From Membranipora membranacea (Eukaryota > Bryozoa > Gymnolaemata > Cheilostomatida > Membraniporidae): a DNA stretch of 64,000 nt. The stretch spans positions 33,850,001 to 33,914,000 of the forward strand of contig OU612065.1 of the NCBI GenBank assembly GCA_914767715.1, written 5' to 3'. A program made the position numbers and the translations under genes. Shown one piece after another: positions 4,983-10,690 of the stretch. Position 1 is the first letter of the stretch; every line of letters starts with the position of its first letter. The notes under the pieces were generated by a model. The model saw only the letters and a program-made list of their open reading frames with translations. It had not been told where the DNA came from and searched no databases.

Positions 4983-7900
4983 CATGTCAAACTTAAAAAA
5001 TTTAAGGCAACTGAATATCAATAAGAATATAGCTCTACTCTCAATTTCCGCTGGAGTATGTCGACTCGATACACTCAGGTCAATAAAGTGTAAAGACTGT
5101 GCATCTCTGACAAGTCCTCCGTATGCTGTCTGTAGTCAGGGGCTAGCAGCAATGAGAAAATACTTTGCCGATCTGGAAGAAAATGTTGAGCAAAACATAA
5201 AGTTTGTTCCAATAACTGTTATTGGTCAAACTATGGCTGGTAAAACCAGCCTTGTTCGGTCAATGCAAGAAAATAAACGGGCTTTGACCACTCGATGTAA
5301 CAATAGTAAGCTAGATGAGGCCACCAAAGTGATCAAGGTGTGTGAGGTAGACGTTGATGAAAAATTCAAACTTGTATTTCATGACTTTGGTGGGCAAGCA
5401 GTATATCAGTTTGCCTATCAATTGTCACATAGATCACAGTATGTTCCCATGCTTGTCATAGACATTGCTGAATTTGACCGACTTGTAGCTGAACACGGAG
5501 AAGAGAATGCCTGTGAGACAGTCTGTTTAACATGGCTCTCCCACCTTTATTTGTCCTGTCCAAAAGCAGGCCAGCCTTTCGTGGTGCTCACCCACTGTGA
5601 TCTTATCGATAATGAAACCTGCAAAGCGAGAGTGAGTCAGTTGATAGAAGTGACTGAACGTCTACGCCTTAGGTTAATAGAAGAGGAGAAAGCCATAGAA
5701 CCAATGAACAGTCCAATCTTCATAATGGAGAGTTTTCGTGATACATCTCAGCCTCTTCTCTCAAAACACACACCCCTTCTCATATATAAAGGTTCTGGAA
5801 CACAGGTAGTCCTCGATCTAAAAACCTTCCTTGTGTCTATTGGATTGCCTCTACTCACAAATATTCCAGGTAGCTGGTATGTTCTGATGAATTTGTGTGC
5901 AAACAGCACACAGCCATATCTTACGCTGGGTGAGCTAGACAAGCTCTTCTCTAATGACAAAGATCGCTTCATTCTTCAGTACCTTCATGAAATCGGGCGA
6001 GTGATGTGGTACAGAAATCGAGTCAAACTAAAAAACATCGTATTTCATCGCATTGAGCTGCTCACACACCTAGTTGAGTTGCTCTATGATCACTGCAGAG
6101 AGGAAGCGTGGAATGAGCGTAGTTTTCTGGCATTCCAGCATGATAACATGGGAATCAACCAACGGCAATACGATCATATGGTCCAATCATACCTAACTAC
6201 TGGAGTGATAAGGGACATTTTGCTGGTCAACCTCATCAAAAAAGAGTCAAAATTGCAACCTGAGCTGGCAATCGAAGTACTGAAGGTCTTCCATCTGGTT
6301 TGTGGCCCAGTCAAGAAGGACAGTGAAAGTCATTATATCATCCCATACTTCAGTCCTAGAGAACTCACAATCGAGGAATCTGGAATGTACATTCTTTTGA
6401 AAGTTGACATATGTTTTAATGGACTGGCTATTCCTAGCTACGTATACCATCTGCTCGCTGCAAATTATGTTGACCTCCATATTACGTTATACAATACTAT
6501 TAAGGCTGGCTGCAATGGTGTTTGCGTGAGGGAAAACAATGGCACGATCAAGTACCTACTTCATAACCATATTGAGAGAACCTTTTCGCTCCTGATCCTG
6601 ACTCCAACAAAACATATCGCTAAATCCTGGGACAGCCTGCTGCACACCTTGCAACATTTAAGATCCCAACTGGAACAAGAATGGAAGGGCGCTCACTATG
6701 AGATAGTATTCTACTGTTCGCACTGCCTGCTCACTAAGAAGGAGAACCCAACCACTCAAGTCAATCCTGCATGGCTCAACAGTCAACATCAACCTTATAC
6801 TGGCGATGAAACTTGTGACTGTATTCAACTTCAATCTTCAACCAAAAGCCCGACTACTATTCCATATCCACTGTTCTATCCATGTGAGTACAGTTTCACC
6901 ATCTTATGTATGATTGAAATGGCAATGCAAATTCTGGTCTGCTGTTTTTGCCTCCCTCTGTATATACCTTAATTCAAATTTGATTTCTCATGCTTGTCAT
7001 ATAATGACATACTACTTCCTACTATATGCTTGATAGGTAGCACCATCACAAAAGAAGGGGTTCAGACTCTAGATGAGTACTTGTCCGACTTCGAAGTAGC
7101 TTCTCATGAATCACAAATAGAGGCTATTGTGAAGGAAGTAAATTCTGAGAAAGTTCTTATCTACGCTTCAGATTTATATCCAGTCACGGCTGACCCAACG
7201 AGTAGTACACTGAAACATAAGGTAGGAAGATGTTGTTGATTTTCACCTTTTATATGTAGTATTTTTAAGATGAACCCCACTGTTTTTTCTCGTAACCTGC
7301 ATACAATAAGATGGTAGTAAATATACTAGATTTAGTGTGCCTACACACACATTAGTCAGAGTCTTATTTGCTTGCAGAAGGTGTACAAAATGTCTGAGAC
7401 TCGCGGAAGAGCGCTGATTATATCGAACACCTGCAATAACACAAGGAAAGGTTCAGAGCATGACTATCGGAATATAAAAGGAATGCTTGAGAAGTTTGGA
7501 TTTATAACTGTAGGAGGTCACAAAAATTACACTGCAGAGGTAATGGCAATGTGTTTGCTCCGCCATTGTTTAAGCGCTCAAACGGTGACGGGATGCTGGT
7601 AGAGGCATTTCATTATCAAGAGAAAGTGGTTGATAATGAAATGCCTCTACCAGCATCCCGCCACCGTTTGAGCGCTTAAACTAGATCCGCTACAATGAGA
7701 TAAACGCATTGTCACTTTAGGATAATTATTAATATTTGATCTAAAATTATAATAGTTAGAGGTGACTGTAACTCAGTTTGTAAGGTAGTATAGATATTTC
7801 ATATGAGAGAGCCAGATATCAATTCCCAGCAATTGCAGATGTATAAGAAGAAGCGACCAACCAGACAGCAGCATCTTGTTATCAACTTGATGCTATTTCT

Positions 7901-10690: not shown

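Follow-up and report, generated by a model that had tools for sequence, protein, structure and literature searches.

Known Sensor and Effector Architectures

ROCO GTPases form the family of the Parkinson's protein LRRK2, and caspases are the proteases of animal cell death, those of the initiator type being activated by proximity. The Apaf-1/caspase-9 apoptosome is an NTP-regulated platform that activates an initiator caspase, and consists of two proteins joined by their CARDs, with a STAND ATPase as the regulated part. Throughout this work, the class of animal caspases is taken to be MEROPS C14A and the peptidase entry IPR009003 is taken to be the trypsin-like serine protease superfamily. The MFHAS1/MASL1-type animal ROCO proteins present the order LRR-Roc-COR without a kinase. 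In bacteria, LRR-AP-GTPase-COR proteins were reported to carry at least 24 C-terminal domains, caspase included, and several copies with different effectors were described per genome (Kaur et al. 2021, PMC8195603, in the accessible part of the paper). Trichoplax ROCO proteins carry LRR, TPR, CARD and death domains, and group 3 of the brown algal ROCO proteins is a eukaryotic case with a C-terminal peptidase, which belongs to IPR009003 and is not a caspase (both from the portion of PMC11378527 available). The LRR-caspase and TNFR-caspase hybrids of amphioxus have a sensor fused straight to an animal caspase with no adaptor (PMC2575513), as is the case here, but differ in that the terms Roc, ROCO and GTPase have no occurrence in the main text of that paper as accessed.

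The locus described here lies in a 64-kb stretch of DNA (the window; GC content 37.6%) and encodes the last LRRs, Roc, COR and a complete caspase. Its likeness to the bacterial LRR-AP-GTPase(Roc)-COR-caspase proteins lies in the order LRR, Roc-type GTPase, COR and C-terminal caspase-superfamily effector; compared by description, the bacterial systems carry a caspase-like peptidase in the broad sense (PMC8195603, accessible part), whereas this gene has introns and a CED-3/caspase-9-like caspase. In the original prediction, the Roc-COR-caspase order was regarded as an architecture not known so far. This view has to be abandoned, as LRR-Roc-COR-caspase had already been described in bacteria (same source and extent); the single-gene Roc-COR-caspase reading was upheld and the lack of precedent was not, and what is new is the animal version of the bacterial architecture, with a caspase-9/CED-3-like caspase. 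The DNA is taken to be of animal origin on account of the type of caspase, the introns and a collagen-like ORF. No animal Roc-COR-caspase was met with among the best literature matches listed, subscription papers and annotation databases lying outside the scope of the search; no match to the fusion by name was obtained, and the accessible parts of PMC7159879 and PMC8075586 hold nothing on Roc-COR-caspase. Relative to the Apaf-1/caspase-9 apoptosome, the present protein would be one chain with a GTPase, and the likeness consists in caspase-9 being its best single-sequence PDB match.

Gene Structure

On the + strand, eight coding exons between 4984 and 10690 were joined in phase into a protein of 1,031 aa (coding length 3,096 nt, including the stop codon TGA at 10688–10690), and each of the seven introns has GT-AG borders and preserves the reading frame. 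The original prediction of an in-phase chain leading from the LRR end through Roc and COR to caspase p20/p10 was thus recovered, with the same junctions at 6883/7037 and 7221/7378 and with the exon 1 read-through stop at 6972 (TAA, 6970–6972); of the nine exons then counted, eight coding exons were found in the window. Exon 1 (4984–6883) holds the end of the LRRs, Roc and COR, amounting to 633 aa plus the initial base of a Cys codon split by intron 1, and was assigned from Pfam Roc and COR-A, 26 relatives, alignment A1, an AlphaFold model and Foldseek matches to CtRoco, LRRK1 and LRRK2. It is followed by intron 1 (6884–7036, 153 nt, donor T/GTGAGT), within which the read-through stop lies, and by exon 2 (7037–7221), the bridge between ROCO and caspase. 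Exon 3 (7378–7539) starts the caspase p20 and contains the S1-pocket Arg candidate R718 (7444–7446), on the basis of Pfam Peptidase_C14 and of the alignment to caspase-9 and CED-3. Exon 4 (8191–8431) continues p20 with catalytic His784 (8293–8295) and Cys827 in QACAG (8422–8424), and exon 5 (8687–8866) holds, according to alignment A2, the p20/p10 linker with Asp and Pro and the start of p10. The p10 core is found in exon 6 (9233–9342), with the S1-pocket Arg candidate R895 (9247–9249) aligned to the Arg of caspase-9 SWRDP; exon 7 (9674–9893) comprises the end of p10 and a C-terminal tail conserved in the caspase relatives P0028–P0030, and exon 8 (10593–10690) the rest of this tail, in which YYQWSVKRN resembles FYKWLVRRN of P0028, and the stop. 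A hexamer scan placed polyadenylation-like AATAAA signals on the + strand at 10932 and 10970 (10932–10975), and a further AATAAA at 11109.

For exon 4, a donor at 8428 was considered and rejected: in P0028–P0030, QACAG is separated from RE by two residues, and the donor at 8431 was chosen because the QACAGSKRE, QACAGGRRE and QACAGVNRE of the relatives fit QACAGSRKE and not QACAGRKE. Two repeats were observed inside introns, namely in intron 3 (7568–7681) a near-perfect (98%) MITE-like inverted repeat of 52 nt enclosing a 10-nt loop, and a perfect TGC trinucleotide array of 34.3 copies in intron 7 (9985–10087).

At the 5′ end, exon 1 holds only the last LRR repeats, and an acceptor (TAC-AG/C) precedes position 4983, which supplies the last of the three bases of a split codon. 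Thirteen of the ROCO relatives have residues upstream of the aligned start, and in nine of these 13 the residue immediately before the start is S, as the acceptor gives here; the residues ahead of that S are not LRR-like in eight of the nine (the exception being P0022), and the other 13 relatives start at or inside the aligned part. ATG 4984 is therefore probably not the true start, and LRR exons would precede exon 1. A search of 1–4982 for upstream LRR exons, defined as phase-2 exons of 60–159 nt, returned no candidates, and seven loose LRR-motif matches in the same region were judged to be due to chance. A large inverted repeat (224-nt arms, 85% complementarity) is present at 2–661, upstream of the gene. 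It looks like a mobile element, and that it separated the LRR exons from the gene is a guess.

Roc and COR Domains

The Roc GTPase domain was located at 5197–5601 (+ strand, aa 72–206), with a Pfam Roc match at residues 77–206 (3.2e-6, 27.8 bits against a cut-off of 27). Its motifs are the P-loop GQTMAGKTS (5224–5250), the switch II DFGGQ (5383–5397) and THCD (5590–5601), which we take to be a G4-like motif differing from the consensus N/TKxD. A search with the whole protein among 4,776 candidates gave 26 ROCO relatives at 28–58% identity; AGKTS is invariant in alignment A1, and the motif D[FYMH][GA]G[QH] is present in all 26. The existence of these relatives, together with the three caspase relatives described below, makes the exon chain more than a chance construction. 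Pfam COR-A matched residues 309–370 at 0.0019 and 18.5 bits, under the cut-off of 35.3. Among the members of alignment A1, Roc was detected in 27/27, COR-A in 21/27 (E ≤ 0.01) and COR-B in 1/27. The AlphaFold2 model of the ROCO exon built from A1 (pLDDT 84.2, pTM 0.80) gave as best Foldseek matches in the PDB the C. tepidum LRR-Roc-COR (1.3e-17) and LRRK1 (6.3e-17), followed by CtRocCOR (4.1e-16) and LRRK2 (7.4e-15); the matches include the CtRoco COR 3dpt and RocCOR 3dpu. Because the model best matches CtRoco and LRRK1/2, a COR domain directly following Roc was accepted on fold similarity despite the weak Pfam score, with approximate limits of 5602–6738 (+ strand) guessed from the secondary structure of the model. 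Hence, of the three profiles named for checking in the original prediction, Roc and Peptidase_C14 exceeded their cut-offs in the joined protein and COR-A fell below its own, COR being supported by the fold match.

The match ends with the ROCO exon (residue 641 or earlier) in 25 of the 26 relatives and reaches residue 653 in P0019, the sole named relative, annotated as Watersipora subatra 'malignant fibrous histiocytoma-amplified sequence 1 homolog' (31% identity). The latter MFHAS1-like protein stops 42 residues past the shared PLVYPC, without a caspase. The other 25, which also lack a caspase, look like single-exon predictions truncated at the exon border; their contigs measure 3–19 kb. Eighteen relatives of the ROCO exon (P0001–P0018) share 31–58% identity with it, which suggests a large ROCO family in related animals. 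No further copies were detected within the window at E ≤ 1, scans of IMG/VR confirmed no relatives, either of the ROCO exon or of the caspase, and a scan of bacterial and archaeal species genomes yielded only three distant Roco-like loci.

Caspase Domain

Pfam Peptidase_C14 matched residues 704–957 (2.4e-30), covering profile positions 1–224 of 233. With the single sequence, the best PDB match of the protein was caspase-9 (1.5e-14), and with profile A2, built from four caspases, CED-3 ranked first among the PDB matches (6.3e-26). His784, Cys827, R718 and R895 have aligned counterparts in caspase-9 and CED-3; we take His784-Cys827 to be the catalytic dyad and R718 and R895 to be the arginines of the P1-Asp (S1) pocket, all of which are intact. 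TRKGS and SHRSP align to TRTGS and SWRDP of caspase-9, and the active site reads QACAG instead of QACRG, caspase-9 itself carrying QACGG. A query of 398 aa (exons 2–8) against 1,714 candidates gave three relatives, P0028, P0029 and P0030, at 43–55% identity. These are uninterrupted across the introns of the present gene, from exon 2, exon 3 and exon 4, respectively, and from this continuity they look like products of spliced transcripts. QACAG and the C-terminal tail after p10 are common to all four A2 sequences; the p20/p10 linker is poorly conserved and has Asp residues in each of the four. The tail (9674–10690, and in P0028–P0030) matched no Pfam family. A death-fold prodomain (CARD or DED) was not among the five Pfam matches obtained at E ≤ 0.1 for the 1,031-aa part seen, and the place of the initiator-caspase prodomain is taken by Roc-COR and exon 2. 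The first residue of P0029 is precisely the Met of MTETRG, where p20 begins and which corresponds to ATG 7390, and P0030 opens with a Met at the position that corresponds to exon 4; given the start of P0029, some members of this clade may be produced as stand-alone caspases.

That the fusion is degenerate or non-functional, as a recent chimera or a pseudogene, is most unlikely. The failure to find LRR exons upstream in the window and the inverted repeats at 2–661 and in intron 3 would be in keeping with such an origin, but the 1,031 codons run without a stop or frame break, the P-loop, His, Cys and both pocket Arg are kept, and the C-terminal tail is conserved.

Junction of the Two Halves

Conservation at the 3′ end of the ROCO exon stops at P-C in alignment A1. 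The next residue, counted by eye, is E (8), K (8) or M (6) in 22 of the 26 relatives, which is how T/GTGAG, T/GTAAG and T/GTATG donors read in that frame; the donors of the relatives were deduced in this way from protein residues. Among the remaining four, P0003 ends at C, G follows in P0019, and P0005 and P0008 depart from the alignment before this point. In 22/26 relatives the ROCO exon thus apparently closes with a conserved phase-1 splice donor, and exon 1 looks like a conserved unit with a phase-2 acceptor at its 5′ side and a phase-1 donor at its 3′ side. A conserved donor implies that the ROCO exon of this family would normally be spliced to something downstream.

Exon 2 was found to resemble the ROCO side as well as the caspase side. 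In register, its 5′ half can be aligned with the residues following COR (after PLVYPC) in the annotated bryozoan ROCO protein P0019: of the 1,984 AG sites in the window (both strands) that are compatible with the phase-1 donor and are followed by 19 open codons, the one at 7037 scored 35 against the continuation of P0019 and the next best 9. In free local alignment, the score of 35 was equalled by 32 of 5,000 shuffles and by one of 281 unrelated open stretches, so that the match without register is moderate and its strength resides in the register. The 3′ half, with four residues of exon 3, scored 49 against the part of P0028 upstream of the caspase, a value that was not reached by any of 5,000 shuffles or by any of 281 further open stretches in the window. 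The first 40 or so residues of P0028 resemble neither the 5′ half of exon 2 nor ROCO; they were considered as coding sequence continuous with ROCO, and this was rejected for want of a convincing match. No in-frame ATG occurs between the stop at 6970 and 7390, and for this reason exon 2 would be entered from an upstream exon, a non-ATG start aside. Codon-usage log-odds trained on exon 1 ranked exon 2 within the highest-scoring 5% of 84 open windows and put exons 3–8 near zero; the test is uninformative, because exons 3–8 were not separated from background.

It is considered very unlikely that the locus holds two adjacent genes on the same strand, of which the ROCO gene would terminate within intron 1 or shortly beyond it, and a caspase gene with a short prodomain would begin at ATG 7390 or in an unseen 5′ exon. 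Such an arrangement would agree with the Met of P0029 at the equivalent of ATG 7390, with the read-through stop of exon 1 at 6972 and with the weaker hexamers between the halves, AGTAAA at 7137 and 7316 (TATAAA also occurs, at 7473). Likewise, no fused relative was seen: none with both halves was found at E ≤ 10 among 2,831 candidates (residues 634–1031 against proteins of 567–1,804 aa), and 0/26 ROCO relatives carry a caspase. It is opposed by the apparent conservation of the donor, by exon 2, which joins a ROCO-like 5′ half to a 3′ half of the caspase lineage without an in-frame ATG, and by the hexamer scan, in which neither AATAAA nor ATTAAA was present between 6884 and 10690, AATAAA occurring after the caspase and inside exon 1 (5082 and 5272). 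The case raised against itself by the original prediction, a ROCO transcript stopping at 6972 and a separate caspase 5′ end near 6994, is accordingly disfavoured by the exon 2 bridge, the donor and the missing ATG. Gene structure and homology, with exon 2 bridging both halves, make the single gene well supported at the sequence level.

A single gene could also give alternative transcripts, the fusion being accompanied by shorter forms such as ROCO alone, through retention of intron 1 and use of the stop at 6972, and caspase-only forms. This is unlikely, if less so than two genes. Intron 1, of 153 nt and with an in-frame stop at 6970, would allow it, and a retained intron could account for the unusual 5′ end of P0028, judging from its residues; the read-through tail past the donor, however, is not conserved in the relatives.

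Proposed Mechanism and Implications

The reading favoured here, with moderate confidence, is that one gene encodes LRR-Roc-COR-caspase and that its domains would act as a unit, namely a single-chain sensor and initiator protease. The LRRs, mostly outside the exons found, would recognise a danger or microbial signal, upon which the nucleotide and dimer state of the Roc GTPase and COR would shift. The pair of caspase domains attached to them would then be brought together or freed and become active, cutting their own Asp-containing linker and, subsequently, downstream substrates, with cell death or an immune response as the outcome. Asp-specific proteolysis is a predicted activity, activation of the attached caspase may be controlled by GTP, and the idea of a one-protein apoptosome is a plausible hypothesis.

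The switch may run opposite to a plain 'GTP = on' scheme. CtRocCOR was reported to dimerise mainly via the C-terminal part of COR and to be a dimer in the nucleotide-free crystal, and a GDP-bound dimer was proposed for LRRK2 (PMC6337361, accessible part); 'GTP-driven monomerization' figures in the title of a later paper (PMC11052575, accessible part). If the present protein behaves like CtRoco, its active dimer may be the GDP or empty state. Complexes of MASL1 were described as modulated by GTP, and its toxicity as enhanced by the loss of GTP (PMC3995007, in the part available).

A wider interpretation, possible but doubtful, is that the COR exon serves as a plug by virtue of its conserved phase-1 donor, that the animal ROCO sensors, as a multi-gene family, swap C-terminal effector exons behind it, caspase being one of them, and that this gene is a GTP-gated one-protein apoptosome. 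If the plug interpretation were true, animals would have kept or re-invented the bacterial design of one GTPase sensor with many effectors. For LRRK2 and other ROCO proteins the physiological output remains a matter of debate, and here the output would be a caspase encoded in the gene itself. A single-chain GTPase-caspase would offer a direct test of whether the monomer/dimer cycle of Roc-COR gates an attached enzyme. It would also extend a bacterial conflict-system architecture to animals, and bears on the assembly of animal cell-death receptors.

Other Features of the Window

On the − strand, an open frame of 741 aa (55027–57252) reads by eye as the reverse transcriptase of a non-LTR retrotransposon. 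Three copies of one open frame were found on the same strand at 47099–47578, 51726–52211 and 58044–58433, with LSPNYILKDIFLLQKRAFRLICN in common, and probably represent a dispersed repeat. A collagen-like Gly-X-Y open frame of 170 aa is located at 23568–24080.
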